From: Deltaproteobacteria bacterium
Lineage (GTDB): Bacteria > Myxococcota_A > Polyangia > Polyangiales > Polyangiaceae
Length of the DNA: 61,678 nt
Assembly: GCA_016875405.1 (NCBI GenBank)
Contig: VGRJ01000019.1
Location: 1-61,678 of the forward strand
Direction: 5' to 3'
The notes under the pieces were generated by a model. That model was not told where the DNA came from and did not search any database. It saw only the letters and a program-made list of their open reading frames with translations. The position numbers and the translations under genes were made by a program. Positions 1 through 61,610 of the stretch are shown piece by piece; positions within the stretch are counted from its first letter, which is position 1; each line of letters begins with the position of its first letter.

Positions 1-52
1 GGCCGCGGCGCTCCCGCGCCGAGCGGCCCCGAGCGGTCAAGGGTTCAACCCT
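1..52 (+). repeat. Palindromic repeat unit, truncated by the window edge
   Basis: The first 31 bases match the conserved box seen at 939 and 61421. It forms a nested hairpin: GGCCGC pairs with GCGGCC, GGCGC pairs with GCGCC, and the loop is TCCC. It is followed at 40-52 by a second palindrome, AGGGTTCAACCCT. The unit lies just past the stop codon of the leftward gene ending at 59, so it could help end that transcript. Anything to the left is outside the window. Confidence 0.75.
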
Positions 53-58
53 CAAGAG

Positions 59-877
59 TCAAGGGAGAGCAGCAGAGCCGGCGCAGCGAAAGCCAAGGTC
101 GTCGCGCTGGTGCGTGGGTCCGTCCCCGTGGCGGAAGGCGGAGCGGGCGCACGACGGGTCGACGCAGCCCCAGCTGCCGCCGCGGCGGACGCGGTATGAG
201 CCCTTCTGAGTCGACGTCCACTCCCACACATTTCCTACCATATCAACGAGCCCGAACGGCGAGCGGCCCTTGGGGTACGCGCCCACGGGGCAGGTGGACT
301 GGCGGTTGCCCTGGCCCTTGTCGTTGCCCTCGCCATCCCAGCAGAGCTGCTTCGACGGCTCCGCGTTGCCCCAGGGAAAGAGGCGACCGTCCGTGCCGCG
401 CGCGGCGTACTCCCACTCCTCCTCCGTGGGGAGGCGCAGGCCCTGGGCCGTGCAGTAGGCGTCGGCCTGGTTCCAGTCGACGCAGTTGATGGGGTGGTTC
501 TGGCGCCCCGCGACGCCCGCGTTGCAGCCGTATTCGGTGTCCGCCGGCGTGCACTTGCCCGCCTTCACGCAGGCGGCGTAGGCCGCCGTCGTCACCTCGG
601 TCCGGTTCATGCAGAAGGCGTCGACCGTGACCTGTCCGGCCTTCTCCGTGTTCTCGTCGTCGCCCATCGTGAAGGTGCCCGCGGGGATGGGGACCATCCC
701 GGGCTTGCACTTGTGCTTTGCTACCGGCGCAGGCTTCGCCGACGGCGCGGCGCTTGGCGAGCCACTCGGCGCGGGCTTCGCCGGAGCGTTGCCGTTCTGT
801 GCTGCGGCGGGCAGCGTCATCCATGCCGCGAGACCGAGCCCCGCCACCATCGTCCCCACCAGGAGTTGCGTTCGCAT
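59..877 (-). CDS. Secreted formylglycine-generating-enzyme-fold (FGE-sulfatase domain) protein
   Basis: The product is 272 aa. Residues 1-27 look like a Sec signal peptide ending in AAA-Q, followed by an Ala/Pro/Ser linker to about residue 56 and then an FGE-sulfatase domain to the C-terminus. Family hallmarks are PAGTFTMG, TEVT, RLPTEEEWEYAARG, FPWGN, VGNVWEWT, RRGGSW and LGFRCA. C238 and C243 form the C-x4-C spacing used by aerobic FGEs to bind copper, so catalysis is possible, but most bacterial members of this fold are not sulfatase activators and no sulfatase lies nearby. The start at 877 was chosen because the signal peptide begins there; the upstream frame is low-complexity. The gene follows the propeller gene in the same direction across 277 bp filled with repeat units. 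Confidence 0.88.
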   Translation of the reverse strand: MRTQLLVGTMVAGLGLAAWMTLPAAAQNGNAPAKPAPSGSPSAAPSAKPAPVAKHKCKPGMVPIPAGTFTMGDDENTEKAGQVTVDAFCMNRTEVTTAAYAACVKAGKCTPADTEYGCNAGVAGRQNHPINCVDWNQADAYCTAQGLRLPTEEEWEYAARGTDGRLFPWGNAEPSKQLCWDGEGNDKGQGNRQSTCPVGAYPKGRSPFGLVDMVGNVWEWTSTQKGSYRVRRGGSWGCVDPSCARSAFRHGDGPTHQRDDLGFRCAGSAALP

Positions 878-938: not shown

Positions 939-1063
939 CCAACACCGGCCGCGGCGCTCCCGCGCCGAGCGGCCCCGCGATGGCGAGGAGCGTTCGCGGC
1001 CCAGGCGGACTCGAGGACCGAAGCGCAGCGACCTTTAAGGTCGTGAGCATCGGACCGGAGAGG
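939..1063 (+). repeat. 125-bp structured repeat unit A
   Basis: A complete unit. The conserved box starting CCAACACCGG holds a nested hairpin at 947-974 (GGCCGC/GCGGCC outside, GGCGC/GCGCC inside, TCCC loop). A conserved spacer follows (GCGATGGCGAGGAGCG), then a hairpin at 1029-1043 (CGACCTT, T, AAGGTCG) and TGAGC. The next unit starts exactly 125 bp on. The spacer and the hairpin position recur at 61321-61420 with changed stem bases. Confidence 0.85.
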
Positions 1064-1124
1064 CCAACACCGGCCGCGGCGCTCACACGCCGAGCGGCCC
1101 CGCGAAGGACTTGAAGGCCGCTGG
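1064..1124 (+). repeat. Structured repeat unit B, diverged
   Basis: The same box as unit A starts at 1064, with two substitutions in the inner loop (TCAC for TCCC, then A for G) that shorten the inner stem. The downstream part is shorter and diverged, but the motif CGTGAGC is kept at its end. The gap between the propeller gene and the FGE-fold gene (878-1154) holds units A and B and no coding region that I can support. Confidence 0.75.
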
Positions 1125-1154: not shown

Positions 1155-2528
1155 TCATCGACGTCGTCGCCGCCGCGCTGCGATGCTCGCGACGGCGAGG
1201 CCCACGAGCCCGAGCGGCGCTGGGTCGACGCGCTCGGCATCGCGCGGGACGACCGCGCAGCCCGACTCGTCCGGCGGCTCAGGCGGCGGGTCACACGTCA
1301 ACGGCGCGACCAGCTCTTTAGCCTCGATCGTCCAGAGCGGGCCGCACGTGCCCCCGACGTCGCTCGCGGCGTCGCACGACTTGGGGCCGCACGCGCTCGT
1401 GAGGAAGGTCACCGGCGCGAACGTCGCGCCGTCGTCGGTGCTGCGGCCGACGCTGAACCCGTCGACGAAGGCGTTGCCGCACACGTAGAGCGCGTCTTCC
1501 TGCCAGCTGAGGCACGCGACGCGAGTCTTCTGGAGTTTCTTCGACTGCGCAGCGTCCTCGAGCGCCGCGACCGGCGCGACCAGCAAGCCTGCTTTCTCAC
1601 CGCCGAACGCCACCCGCGTCCCGTCGGGCGAGAGCGAGAAGCCCGGGAGCAGCTCCTTGGCCTCGGCGTAGGTCGTGAAGCTCGCCCCGCCGTCTCGGCT
1701 GACGAGGTTTCGCTGCTCGCGGATCGGCGGCGCGTCGAGGACCGCCGACACGAACACCGTCGGCGGCTCGGTCGGCAGGACGCCCTGCAGGTACGGGAGC
1801 GTCGCGAGCCCGTCGACGCCGTCGAGCTCGAGGCGCTGCCACGATGTGCCGCCGTCGTCGGAGCGAAACAGCACGCCGTGGTACCCGCCGTCGAGCGTCC
1901 CGTCGCGCCCGCTGAGGAAGATCGTCCCCCACTCGAGCGCGTCGCTCGCGCTCGGAGCCGCGACGACCGAGAGCGCGAGAAAGTCCTTGGGCAGGCTCGC
2001 GGCGAGGTCCTTCCAGGAGGCAGCCCCATCGCGCGACTCGAAGAGGCGCACGTCGAAGACGTCCTCGCCTACCCCGTTCGACGCGAGGGCGAGCACCGGA
2101 GAGCCCGGCGCGGGGGCGTCGCGCGTCGGCAGGGCCGCGAGCTCGACGATGTAGTGGTCCTTCGTCGCCGGCACGAGGTCGTACCCGCAGCGGTCCTCCG
2201 AGGCGACCACGAGGCCACCGAAGGTGCCGACCACGAGGTGCCCCTCCACGAGCGTGAGCGCGGGATCCTCCTTGTTGGCGTCGTAGCCGATCGCCGACGA
2301 GCAGAGCCAGCGCCAGCCGCCGCCGGGACCTGCCTCGAGCTCGGGCGTGTCGTAGAGGCCGAAGGTGGTACGGACGACGGCGTGGTCCGGCGCGGCCCGA
2401 TCGAAGCGCACCGCGTTCGACGCAGGAAAGCGTCCGTGCGCATGAGCGTCGCGGGTGCCGAGCGACGCGAGCGCGAGCAAGGCAGCGGCGAGCCAGCGGC
2501 TTCGGAGAGTCGACGTGTCGCGATCCAT
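1155..2528 (-). CDS. Secreted BNR/sialidase-type beta-propeller protein with MYXO-CTERM-like tail
   Basis: The product is 457 aa. The signal peptide spans about 32 residues and ends in DAHA. The body has Asp-box style blades such as LFESRDGAASW, LFRSDDGGTSW, LVSRDGGASF and GRSTDDGATF, which mark a BNR/VPS10-like propeller of photosystem-stability-factor or sialidase type. The last 35 residues contain a Cys, a hydrophobic stretch and a run of six Arg, like the MYXO-CTERM sorting signal. Sialidase catalytic Arg residues are not evident, so a binding role is likelier than glycosidase activity. An ATG at 2561 lies in frame but would overlap the divergent gene; 2528 fits the signal peptide better. 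Confidence 0.82.
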   Translation of the reverse strand: MDRDTSTLRSRWLAAALLALASLGTRDAHAHGRFPASNAVRFDRAAPDHAVVRTTFGLYDTPELEAGPGGGWRWLCSSAIGYDANKEDPALTLVEGHLVVGTFGGLVVASEDRCGYDLVPATKDHYIVELAALPTRDAPAPGSPVLALASNGVGEDVFDVRLFESRDGAASWKDLAASLPKDFLALSVVAAPSASDALEWGTIFLSGRDGTLDGGYHGVLFRSDDGGTSWQRLELDGVDGLATLPYLQGVLPTEPPTVFVSAVLDAPPIREQRNLVSRDGGASFTTYAEAKELLPGFSLSPDGTRVAFGGEKAGLLVAPVAALEDAAQSKKLQKTRVACLSWQEDALYVCGNAFVDGFSVGRSTDDGATFAPVTFLTSACGPKSCDAASDVGGTCGPLWTIEAKELVAPLTCDPPPEPPDESGCAVVPRDAERVDPAPLGLVGLAVASIAARRRRRR

Positions 2529-54769: not shown

Positions 54770-56464
54770 ATGTTCGAGACGATTTCGAAGGGGTTTCGCC
54801 AGGCTCGCAACCGGCTCGCCGGGTTGACCGAGCTCAACGATCAGAACATCGAGCCGGCGCTGCGCGAGGTGCGGCTCAGCCTGCTCGAGGCGGACGTCGA
54901 GCTCGGGGTCGCGAAGGCGTTCCTCGCCCGAGTCAAGGCGAAGGCGGTCGGGCAGACCCTCGAGACGCGCGTGAAGCACGGCGGCTCGACGCACGAGGTC
55001 GGCGCGGGGGAGCGCTTCATCAAGATCTGCCACGACGAGCTCGTCGAGCTGATGGCGCACGAGGGCGAGCCCGTCGTGTGGGCCGAGCGCGGCCCCACCA
55101 AGGTCGTGATGATCGGTCTGCAAGGCTCGGGCAAGACGACGACCTCCGCGAAGCTCGCGCGCTTCCTGCGCGAGGAAGAAGAGTGCAAGCCGCTCCTCGT
55201 CGCGGCCGACATGCAGCGCCCCGCCGCGGTCGAGCAGCTCCAGATCCTCGGCAAGCAGCTCGACGTCCCGGTCTTCAACATCCCCGGCGCGACCCCGGTC
55301 GCGATCTGCGCGGCCGCCGAGGCCGAGGCGAAGCGGCTCGGCTGCGATCTCATCCTCTACGACACCGCGGGTCGGCTCTCGATCGACGAGACGCTGATGA
55401 CCGAGCTCGACGCGGTGAAGTCGGCTGTCTCGCCGCAGAACATCTTCCTCGTCGTCGACGCGATGATCGGCCAGGACGCCGTCCAGACCGCGCGCAATTT
55501 CCACGAGCGGCTGGGCATCACCGGCGTCATCCTCACGAAGCTCGACGGCGACGCGCGCGGCGGCGCGGCCCTCAGCGTGAAGGAGGTCACCCAGGCGCCG
55601 ATCCTCTACTGCGGCGTCGGCGAGACGACCGACAAATTCGAGGAGTTCCGCCCCGACGGCATGGCGAGCCGCATCCTCGGCATGGGCGACGTCGTCGGCC
55701 TGATGCAGGACTTCGAGCGCGTCGTCGACGAGAAGAAGGCCGAGAAGGATGCCGCGCGCATGCTGAGCGGCGAGTTCACGCTCGACGATTTCCTTGAGCA
55801 GATCGCGATGATCCAACAAATGGGTTCGCTGCGCGATCTGGTAGACAAGCTCCCGCTCGGCGGCCTGCTCCCCGGCGGGCTGCCCGAGGGCGTCAACCTC
55901 GACGACAAGGAGCTCGTCCGGATCCGCGCCGTGATTCAGTCGATGACCAAGGCCGAGCGCGTCGACCCTTACGTGCTCATCCGCGAGCCAGGCCGCGCGA
56001 AGCGCATCGCGAAGGGCAGCGCCACGAACGAGCAGCAGGTGACTGCGGTGGTGCAGCAGTTCCTGATGATGAAGCAGATGATGAGCGCGATGGGCGGCGG
56101 CGGCGGCCTGCTCGGGAACCTCCCGGGCATGAAGGGCCTCGCCAGCATGCGCAAAATGAAGCAGCTCATGAAGAAGGGCGGCGGCCTCCCGGGGATGCCG
56201 GGAATGGGCGGCTTCCCCGGGATGCCGGGAATGCCGGGAATGGGCGGGATGCCGGGGATGCCGGGAATGGGCGGCTTCCCCGGGATGCCGGGAATGGGAG
56301 GCTTCCCCGGGATGCCGGGAATGGGAGGCTTCCCCGGGATGCCGGGAATGGCAGGAGGCGCGCGGCAGGAGGCCCCGAAGGCCCCGCTCACGCCGTCCGA
56401 GCGCAACGCCAAGAAGGCCGACCGCAAGCGCCAGAAGGACGCGCGCAAGAAGGGCCGCCGCTAG
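54770..56464 (+). CDS. ffh: Signal recognition particle protein Ffh/SRP54 with a Pro-Gly-Met repeat tail
   Basis: The product is 564 aa, longer than the usual 450. N domain (1-85), then GTPase with [15 protein letters not shown] (P-loop, from 116), [13 protein letters not shown] and [13 protein letters not shown]. The M domain has [33 protein letters not shown] and [16 protein letters not shown], the RNA-binding helix region. The surplus length is a tail (about 474-530) of Pro-Gly-Met-Pro-Gly-Met-Gly-Gly units followed by a Lys/Arg-rich end. Ffh binds signal sequences and 4.5S RNA to target nascent chains to the membrane; the Met-rich M domain makes the signal-sequence groove, so extra Met could enlarge it. 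Start at 54770 gives [11 protein letters not shown], typical for the family. Confidence 0.95.
56186..56350 (+). repeat. In-frame tandem repeat encoding Pro-Gly-Met units in ffh
   Basis: About five near-identical units of the form GGCTTCCCCGGGATGCCG plus GGAATGGG run in frame inside the ffh tail. The codon-level identity is high, implying recent copy-number change by slippage, and copy number may vary between strains. No effect on frame is expected because units are multiples of three. Confidence 0.88.
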
Positions 56465-57401: not shown

Positions 57402-57806
57402 ATGAACTCGCGTCGTCTTTCCAAGCTCGCTCACCTAACTCAGGGGGTCGCGCTCGTCGGCCTCGGCACCGCGCTCGTCGCCTGCGCAAAGGACTCGCAG
57501 AACCAGGGCCCTGTCGAGCCCGTCCACACCAACGCACCAGGCGCGCACGACGGTGACCACGACGGTGACCACGACGGTGACCACCACGGCGACCACCACG
57601 GCGAGCACGCTCACCGCCACGACGCGGACCACGCCGCCCCGAGCGCCACCGCCGCCGCCACCGCGGCGCCGACCGCCGAGTCGGCCGCGGTGCCGACCGC
57701 CGCACCGAGCGCAGCCCCCTCTGCCGCTCCCGTCGAGCCGGTGAGGGTCAACGCGCCCGCGCCGGTCGCGCCGAAGAAGACCAACGCGCCGGCTACGAAG
57801 CGCTGA
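57402..57806 (+). CDS. His/Asp-rich metal-binding lipoprotein
   Basis: The product is 134 aa. The ATG at 57402 opens a signal peptide with lipobox LVAC near residue 27. Residues about 49-78 consist of repeated His-Asp-Gly-Asp and His-His-Gly-Asp units with over ten His, a strong candidate metal buffer for zinc, nickel or copper. The rest is an Ala/Pro/Thr linker with two copies of a VEPV-x-x-NAP motif. Similar low-complexity His-rich lipoproteins are poorly conserved, so it is easily missed. It lies 7 bp before the ferritin-like gene, suggesting a shared metal-related role. Confidence 0.75.
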   Translation: MNSRRLSKLAHLTQGVALVGLGTALVACAKDSQNQGPVEPVHTNAPGAHDGDHDGDHDGDHHGDHHGEHAHRHDADHAAPSATAAATAAPTAESAAVPTAAPSAAPSAAPVEPVRVNAPAPVAPKKTNAPATKR

Positions 57807-61251: not shown

Positions 61252-61320
61252 GGCCGGTGGTCGGGGGGCACACCCCGACATCAGGAGCGCTACCCCAACC
61301 ATGCCCCTAAGCAAACTGTG

Positions 61321-61420
61321 CCGAGCGGCCCCGCGATGGCGAGGAGCGTCCGCGGCCTAGGCGTGCAACGAGGAGGCCGCGCAACGTGCTCGAAGCACGT
61401 GAGCGGCTGACGAGGCAGCG
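61321..61420 (+). repeat. Structured repeat unit C, lacking the first box arm
   Basis: The unit starts at CCGAGCGGCC and keeps the spacer GCGATGGCGAGGAGCG of unit A. Its hairpin at 61385-61399 reads CGTGCT, CGA, AGCACG and is followed by TGAGC, at the same place as in unit A but with paired changes in the stem. The next box starts exactly 125 bp after the equivalent base. Confidence 0.82.
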
Positions 61421-61456
61421 CAACACCGGCCGCGGCGCTCCCGCGCCGAGCGGCCA
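61421..61456 (+). repeat. Structured repeat unit D, box only
   Basis: The sequence from CAACACCGGCC to GAGCGGCCA matches unit A base for base except at the end. It carries the nested hairpin GGCCGC/GCGGCC and GGCGC/GCGCC. The usual spacer is absent and is replaced by the long hairpin at 61457. Confidence 0.82.
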
Positions 61457-61492
61457 CGTCGCGCACGGGTCGTTCATTTGACCCGCGCGACG
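61457..61492. terminator. Long GC hairpin after repeat unit D
   Basis: CGTCGCGC pairs with GCGCGACG and GGGTC pairs with GACCC, 13 bp in all, with an AC bulge and an 8-nt loop of GTTCATTT. It stands where the variable hairpin stands in the other units. No T-tract follows. It may be part of the repeat family or a terminator. Confidence 0.6.
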
Positions 61493-61610
61493 GGCCGGGC
61501 GGGATGACGATGGGTGGGATGAGGACCGGCAGGACGGCGGTGGGCGGGCGAGCGCGGCGCTGGACGGGCCCGCGGAGAAATGATTCTGACGACGGAGGTT
61601 GCGTGGTCAG

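Follow-up and report, generated by a model that had tools for sequence, protein, structure and literature searches.

What kind of element is the repeat that stands at both ends of the window, the stretch of 61,678 nucleotides analysed here, and is its structure kept as RNA? An earlier note on the sequence had described a box at 1, 939, 1064 and 61421, repeated with one period and orientation at both ends, and a hairpin whose stem had changed on both sides between units, from which it suggested a selected structure outside any named family. The sections below follow the repeat through its own genome and other bacteria, in relation to neighbouring genes and at the one locus where its insertion can be seen.

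Layout of the repeat

Exact matches to CAACACCGGCCGCGGCGCTC lie at 940, 1065 and 61421 of the window, with GGCCGCGGCGCT additionally at 1, and GCCGAGCGGCC is found at 18, 964, 1089, 61320 and 61445, which gives a period of exactly 125 at each window end. The boxes and the period are thereby borne out by exact string positions. The word near-identical, which the earlier note had used, has to be restricted to the box since the two units compared agree in only 99 of 128 alignment columns. The features of the repeat and its neighbourhood are as follows.

1..39, minus strand: box end of a unit, cut by the contig edge; 1-31 matches at 100% (blastn)
59..853, minus strand: formylglycine-generating-enzyme-like (FGE-like) gene between repeats (PF03781, 1.2e-51)
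939..1063, minus strand: complete 125-bp unit A, box and core hairpin (sequence, blastn, fold z)
1012..1059, minus strand: core hairpin (covariance model R1, 69.5 bits, E 6.9e-16)
1029..1043, no strand: variable stem CGACCTTTAAGGTCG
1064..1124, minus strand: second, partial unit (L008), a box and then degenerate sequence to near the stop at 1155
1155..2528, minus strand: gene without a Pfam family that lies upstream (in sense) of the 939-1124 array
61320..61458, minus strand: right-end array, one unit and a terminal box
61369..61415, minus strand: core hairpin of the right array (R1, 42.8 bits, E 4.0e-8)
61385..61399, no strand: variable stem CGTGCTCGAAGCACG

The units of an array are arranged head to tail. 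Read on the minus strand, a unit consists of a box hairpin, a linker whose last bases are GGTCC or GCTCC, the core and a second hairpin, so that the box of the earlier note is the start of the element and its hairpin the core. The core reads GATGCTCACG, three variable pairs, a loop and CG(C/T)T(G/C)CGCTTCGG, and is separated from the second hairpin by about CCTCGAGTCCGCCT(A/G)GGCC, while a second branch, present at the right end of the window and in contig C95, carries GCCGCTCACG...CGCTGCGCGGCC in place of the main core. Unit A (939..1063) has a fold z of -3.76 on the plus strand and -2.60 on the minus strand. The two-sided stem change that had been reported was located at 1029-1043 and 61385-61399.

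Several other features accompany these repeats. The FGE-like stretches at 1-1124 of the window and at C41:32284-33442 (L001) are paralogous, with repeats flanking both sides of each and the sequence adjoining the stop common to both, an arrangement that resembles a duplicated gene cassette bordered by the repeats. In L001, L004 and L005 (contigs C41, C63 and C95) the box variant runs on as GAGCGCGCTGCTTTCCCGCGTGACCGCCGCG and not as GAGCGGCCCCGCG, which represents a recurring short insertion. The stretch 61450-61560 (GCCACGTCGCGCACGGGTCGTTCAT...), which follows the right array, is shared with the end of contig C95 (L005) and is a second repeat beside the array. Other tandem repeats of the window have units of 27 bp (56180-56351) and 12 bp (57546-57712).

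Copies in the genome and at contig ends

The window is the complete contig C19 of an assembly of 218 contigs and 5.02 Mb, in which contigs C43, C63, C95, C126, C159 and C79 too have an end that lies in the repeat or no more than 100 bases away. The presence of copies at both window ends is therefore largely a consequence of assembly breaks; of the symmetry pointed out before, the period of 125 is real, whereas the shared ends are mostly an assembly effect.

The genome-wide box search that had been proposed found the box (at most 2 mismatches) at 15 places as against 1 for the reversed pattern as a control. A blastn search with 935-1125 gave 48 matches in the same genome at E<=10, of which 21 had E<=1.3e-4, and the covariance model R1, whose training set included 13 of them, recovered 19 core hairpins at E<=1.7e-4. 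In this genome the repeat is amplified in tandem, head to tail, with a 125-bp period.

Spread across bacteria

A scan for the exact core pattern, with one genome per species, gave at least 117 stretches, of which 80 were taken (L038-L117). These are mostly alphaproteobacterial, with 12 loci from Listeria, one Rickettsiales genome, one Saccharibacteria and three metagenome-assembled genomes labelled Myxococcales, Polyangiaceae or Deltaproteobacteria. Among the matches listed, the bulged core occurs in Gluconacetobacter, Mesorhizobium, Phyllobacterium, Asticcacaulis, sphingomonads, Listeria, a Rickettsiales and a Saccharibacteria, and none of the matches listed comes from L. monocytogenes. Copy number ranges from 2 to 59 in the 12 carrier genomes counted. 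The core is found in 31 of 59 relatives at E<=0.01 and in 26 of 282 genomes of a phylum sample at E<=0.001 under stricter filters, the genome of the window being included in both. Presence is patchy even within the genus, with 0, 1, 5 and 12 cores in the congeners G015, G013, G016 and G014 and 19 in the genome of the window. A sphingomonad copy had three matches in 72,556 plasmid records (Phyllobacterium, Sphingobium and Legionella) and no match among phage records. Tandem copies exist in Gluconacetobacter too (L045, spacing 166). The repeat of the window is a local, tandemly amplified branch of a hairpin family that crosses phyla.

Two relatives, G018 and G063 (L202-L221), hold a dozen or more similar copies each, many of them at contig ends, which suggests recent amplification. 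A longer mobile element behind the near-identical G018 copies was considered and rejected, as what these copies have in common extends over only about 90-200 bp, where the contigs end; in G063 the stretch common around the cores is mostly shorter than 180 bp.

Covariation in the core

The core hairpin is clearly kept by paired changes, and the covariation is strong. In alignment A3, with 48 cores (13 from the genome of the window and 35 from other genomes), 90.5% of the cells are paired and 59 cells are changed on both sides, compared with 12.2 in shuffles that carry no phylogeny; none of 500 shuffles reached this count, and shifting the partner by 1-3 columns left 1-16 such cells. Of five measures on A3, one, the number of further pair types, did not exceed the shuffles (17 compared with 16.1; 208 of 500 shuffles). 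Two further sets, both fitted to the structure of the model and judged by the same kind of shuffle, gave 101 both-sided cells compared with 32.6 (A4, 90 matches) and 58 compared with 13.9 (A5, 41 chosen loci mostly from relatives, in which L181 repeats a training-set sequence and L175 probably does too). Mismatches and bulges of the core are also kept at fixed places. The compensatory change described from two units is thus real, as all three alignments lie well above shuffles, but strong covariation in a repeat is by itself no proof of an RNA function.

Position at stop codons

The copies often stand at a stop codon and follow the orientation of the gene that ends there. This was seen in 77 foreign copies with a known upstream gene, out of 81 in all, which had been chosen by the exact core pattern and whose genes were called with a codon-usage caller made for this analysis. 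The upstream gene is co-directional in 66 of the 77 and oppositely oriented in 11, while it is co-directional at 1412 of 3800 random intergenic points. A stop lies 38-58 nt before the core in 51 of the 66 co-directional copies as against 233 of the 1412 control points. In Listeria 6 of 12 copies have a stop at this distance, and the arms begin up to several bases after it. All 12 rows of the genome of the window that have a known upstream gene are co-directional (six have no upstream call and one is a stray intragenic match), with a stop 43-54 nt before the core in 7 rows, and 7 of 16 further loci from relatives and this genome have their stop 38-51 nt ahead of the start of the model. Within the window, the box at 1..39 stands directly after a TGA (37-39) on the minus strand and 19 nt past the stop (59-61) of the FGE-like gene. 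The 939-1124 array is not placed directly at a stop: 30 nt of degenerate sequence separate 1124 from 1155, and the distance from stop to core is 103 nt.

The edge of the palindrome can be placed more exactly. The bases before it are TGA in 27, TAA in 12 and TAG in 13 of 52 copies, and in 41 of these 52 the 9-nt arm that directly follows the stop is paired to the far end with at most 2 mismatches, so that these copies have terminal inverted repeats. An edge test was made on 38 copies (37 alphaproteobacterial and one from Listeria), with L065, L091 and L108 excluded beforehand since an in-arm TGA had been mistaken for the stop; arm positions 0-8 pair by construction (<=2 mismatches), so that only the positions outside them are a test. 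The third base of the stop is paired in 33 of 38 copies and the second in 16 of 38, and further out the share is 21-37%. At the third base A faces T in 25 copies and G faces C in 8 (Fisher 1.9e-6), the far base being C in 8 of the 9 stops that end in G.

The genes that end at the element are diverse. Of 19 examined, nine from the genome or window and ten foreign, 16 have Pfam families and 3 have none; they include rpoD (a sigma-70 factor), GroEL, cytochrome c1, exonuclease VII, dehydrogenases and a LysR regulator.

The strand and the question of RNA

So sharp a position together with the orientation bias would be expected of a functional element at the 3' end of mRNAs, in which hairpins at stop codons are selected for mRNA stability, for termination or for an effect on terminating ribosomes and mobility is secondary. 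The conserved bulges and mismatches of the core also speak for this, and for REPs no more than 15 nt from a stop codon a lowering of translation is reported in E. coli (PMC12306157, where earlier work is cited for this). The composition of the pairs points elsewhere. Wobble pairs were counted in the loci L038-L117, chosen by the exact core pattern. The core of 90 copies has 1304 Watson-Crick, 10 G-T and 6 A-C cells and 120 others, which fall mostly on one bulge and on three pairs at the outside. In the arms, counted on the strand opposite to the mRNA, the pairs that both strands are predicted to form, a set that is by definition biased against wobble, sum over five groups to 2640 Watson-Crick, 59 G-T and 43 A-C, and those predicted on either strand to 268 G-T as against 72 A-C. 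Variable pairs, with more than one Watson-Crick type, comprise 1199 Watson-Crick, 94 G-T and 29 A-C, with several single columns giving most of the G-T. The excess of G-T therefore favours the strand that is not the mRNA, in 78 of 82 copies the complement folds better than the mRNA-sense strand, a T-rich stretch of the kind that follows an intrinsic terminator hairpin is present in only 3 of 67 copies, and presence is patchy among congeners. Selection as an mRNA element is for these reasons quite unlikely to be the general explanation.

The earlier expectation that the structure is selected probably as RNA is not supported by the counts, with 10 G-T beside 1304 Watson-Crick cells in the core and an arm excess on the non-mRNA strand, and an RNA function was not accepted from covariation alone once wobble had been counted. 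If the element is selected as RNA at all, the strand complementary to the mRNA of the upstream gene is the more likely one, because it carries the G-T excess and is the better-folding one in 78 of 82 copies, with a mean advantage of 13.7 kcal/mol. Fold energy as proof of a structured antisense strand was dropped, the alignment counts being mixed (59:43, 268:72, 94:29), and no strand is claimed here since much of the G-T excess also falls in few columns. Possible accounts are a constraint at the DNA level, template-switch repair of palindromes, and a role of the other strand as structured RNA or as single-stranded DNA.

A related proposal makes the complementary strand, which is the plus strand of the window, the working form, as RNA whose transcription runs towards the end of the gene or as folded single-stranded DNA, in a position comparable to that of integron attC sites. 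Its better folding, its G-T excess and the location after a stop codon are consistent with this; yet much of that excess stems from few columns common to related copies and shrinks to 59 against 43 in both-strand pairs. In attC sites the conserved part is not at the hairpin tip and R and L boxes form the outer ends, whereas here the conserved part is at the tip, the outer arms are variable and the empty site described below has a 3-bp duplication, so that this proposal is very unlikely.

Mobility and candidate machinery

Mobility can be read directly at one locus, which has a clean empty site. In Gluconacetobacter azotocaptans the sequence behind the exonuclease VII gene is split by a copy of about 160 bp, and in G. 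johannae it runs on unbroken: the former reads CTGA[GAGCCGG...CCGGCTC]TGAACC and the latter CTGACTTC, with TGA duplicated (3 bp). Eight other Gluconacetobacter genomes have no core directly behind this gene, and two of the eight have a copy further downstream, at about 0.6 kb (L226) and, diverged, at about 1 kb (L224). Exact duplication of the stop was found in 4 of 41 copies with a pairable arm and at 5 of 328 control positions; the rarity of exact duplications implies that old copies have diverged or that other joins occur. At the stop codon of rpoD the element is present in the genome of the window, in G016 and, in its first part up to the contig end, in G013, and is absent from G014 and G015. 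Similarity of G013, G014 and G015 to the sequence of this genome extends no further than the stop codon; for G013 the reason is an arm that, as in G016, is unlike the one found here. Read by eye, the arms of the rpoD copy are fully complementary to the far end in G016 and partly so in the genome of the window. The orthologues that two congeners have of the gene at 1155..2528 are not followed by the repeat; they were rejected as a clean empty site for the 939-1124 array, as the following gene also differs in G016, and a candidate empty site for L063 was rejected because only one flank matched.

Two transposase families were searched for in the carriers. REP or BIME elements moved by a Y1 tyrosine transposase of the RAYT type would be, like the present repeats, palindromic, intergenic, multicopy, partly clustered and located 3' of genes. 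The linked RAYT-type gene that had been proposed as a check was not found: the genome of the window has no Y1 transposase, and Y1 is absent from 10 of 14 other carriers and present in 4. There is also no constant GTAG end, and the empty site has a target duplication, which HUH-type transposition is not known to make. For most carriers tested this explanation was rejected for want of Y1, and as a general account it is highly improbable.

Ordinary MITEs served by transposases of the IS5/IS1031 type or by others, with a TNA target for which stop codons are merely convenient sites and a core spread horizontally, would account for the duplicated TGA of the empty site. In G. diazotrophicus an IS5-type element ends in GAGCCCGATCCGAAAG next to TTA, and its ends resemble the arms of several Gluconacetobacter copies, such as GAGCCTG...GAAAATG. 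A duplicated TNA target would explain the A-T cases at the palindrome edge, not the TAG cases, and 13 of the 52 stops are TAG, whose final G faces C in 8 of 9. Moreover, arms differ between lineages, even in the orthologous rpoD copies of the genome of the window and G016. The IS5-type domain DUF4096 was found in four of ten genomes and is missing in six, among them the genome of the window, L. grayi and the element-rich G. johannae. Mobilisation in trans by an IS5-type element would appear to fit Gluconacetobacter, judging by the likeness of the ends, and not the general case. Given that DUF4096 is missing in six of ten genomes, such MITEs provide no general answer, and this explanation is left as an unlikely rival. 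No transposase common to the carriers emerged from the two families searched (Y1 and DUF4096).

Next to the element at L101, on its downstream side, lies another repeat (about 115 bp) that is matched many times in G. azotocaptans and G. johannae.

A proposed mobile hairpin at the ends of genes

The reading that is preferred here, with a probability of roughly 0.55, is that of a MITE- or REP-like mobile hairpin placed at stop codons and amplified in tandem in the genome of the window. The repeat would be a small (about 120-170 bp) non-coding palindromic element with a conserved bulged core hairpin near its tip, probably recognised by some protein, and with arms that change fast yet remain complementary. 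Copies would land at the stop codon of a host gene with the strand reading GATGCTCACG in the direction of the gene, a placement and orientation by which the gene keeps a stop codon. In alphaproteobacterial copies the palindrome would start at the third base of the stop itself, and a copy that is co-transcribed with the gene would become a 3'-UTR hairpin from the stop codon on. A DDE-type transposase acting in trans may have moved the copy that duplicated TGA, and the position at stop codons could come from targeting or from selection.

A more specific version holds that these cross-phylum hairpins are actively directed to stop codons, oriented as the gene is and, most clearly in alphaproteobacteria, with the palindrome beginning at the third base of whichever stop is used, by candidate machinery without a name that would recognise the core, with the arms rewritten at each site so as to be complementary. 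This version is tentative and somewhat doubtful. If the placement of a mobile hairpin at stop codons is true, one small parasitic or domesticated hairpin would sit at the exact ends of genes, some of them likely essential, in alphaproteobacteria, Listeria, myxobacteria and others. It would provide a simple, testable example in which a mobile element takes the stop codon for its site and so does no damage, together with a ready collection of natural gene-end hairpins for the study of termination and mRNA decay.

Comparison with known systems

The suggestion that the repeat belongs to no named family agrees with Rfam, which has no match at gathering score in the window. The Rfam matches in 16 foreign loci were a lysine riboswitch and four tRNAs, all of them away from the elements. 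Below the gathering score three miRNA-precursor models (E 0.0004-0.0021) fell on the long hairpin of L080, and a lax search of the window and L058 gave nothing below E 0.7. An earlier description was not found in open-access PMC full text, although one may exist in subscription papers, supplements or preprints, which lie outside this scope. The literal strings GATGCTCACG, GCTCACGTAC, CGCTCCGCTTC and CGCTGCGCTTCGG matched papers there that, by title and among the matches listed, deal with unrelated subjects.

The GTAG and CGTC REPs and BIMEs, as described in the main text of PMC3733652, are similar in being short palindromic intergenic repeats of many phyla that lie mostly downstream of genes, show complementary stem changes and form clusters. 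The ends of GTAG REPs often supply a TAG stop codon (Di Nocera et al. 2013, PMC3733652), but GTAG is no constant end of the present element, given the TGA, TAA and TAG counts before the palindrome. REPs are also smaller, with 20-40 bp in the same source as against 120-170 bp here (a unit of 125 bp in the genome of the window and about 160 bp in Gluconacetobacter), and most of the carriers tested differ from those of tagged REPs in having no Y1 transposase. CGTC REPs are defined by a CGTC end, an 8-9 bp stem starting with A-T pairs and a CCA tail (PMC3733652); the sense strand of the genome of the window has CCGTCGTTGG inside many units, and inspection by eye found no such stem or tail there. 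Listeria, Gluconacetobacter, Mesorhizobium, Asticcacaulis and myxobacteria are absent from the main text of that paper.

Bacterial MITEs such as Correia/NEMIS, ERIC and RUP, in the account given by PMC2229807, share with the element its size, the lack of coding capacity and inverted-repeat arms, and a target duplication was seen at one site here. Unlike the MITEs of that account, the element has arms that vary between lineages, a conserved central core and an anchoring at stop codons. The CIR elements, from Caulobacter and further alphaproteobacteria, are likewise intergenic, about 110 bp long and built with long inverted repeats, and are set apart by their description, namely by GANTC methylation sites and two separate hairpins (PMC2229807). 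The Rickettsia RPEs, palindromes of 105-146 bp with a long stem-loop, are distinguished on the same descriptive basis, since they are described as inserted in frame within genes as well as lying between them (PMC2229807). The element behaves like a MITE or a REP, departs from the tagged REPs in end and transposase, and agrees with MITEs only in part.
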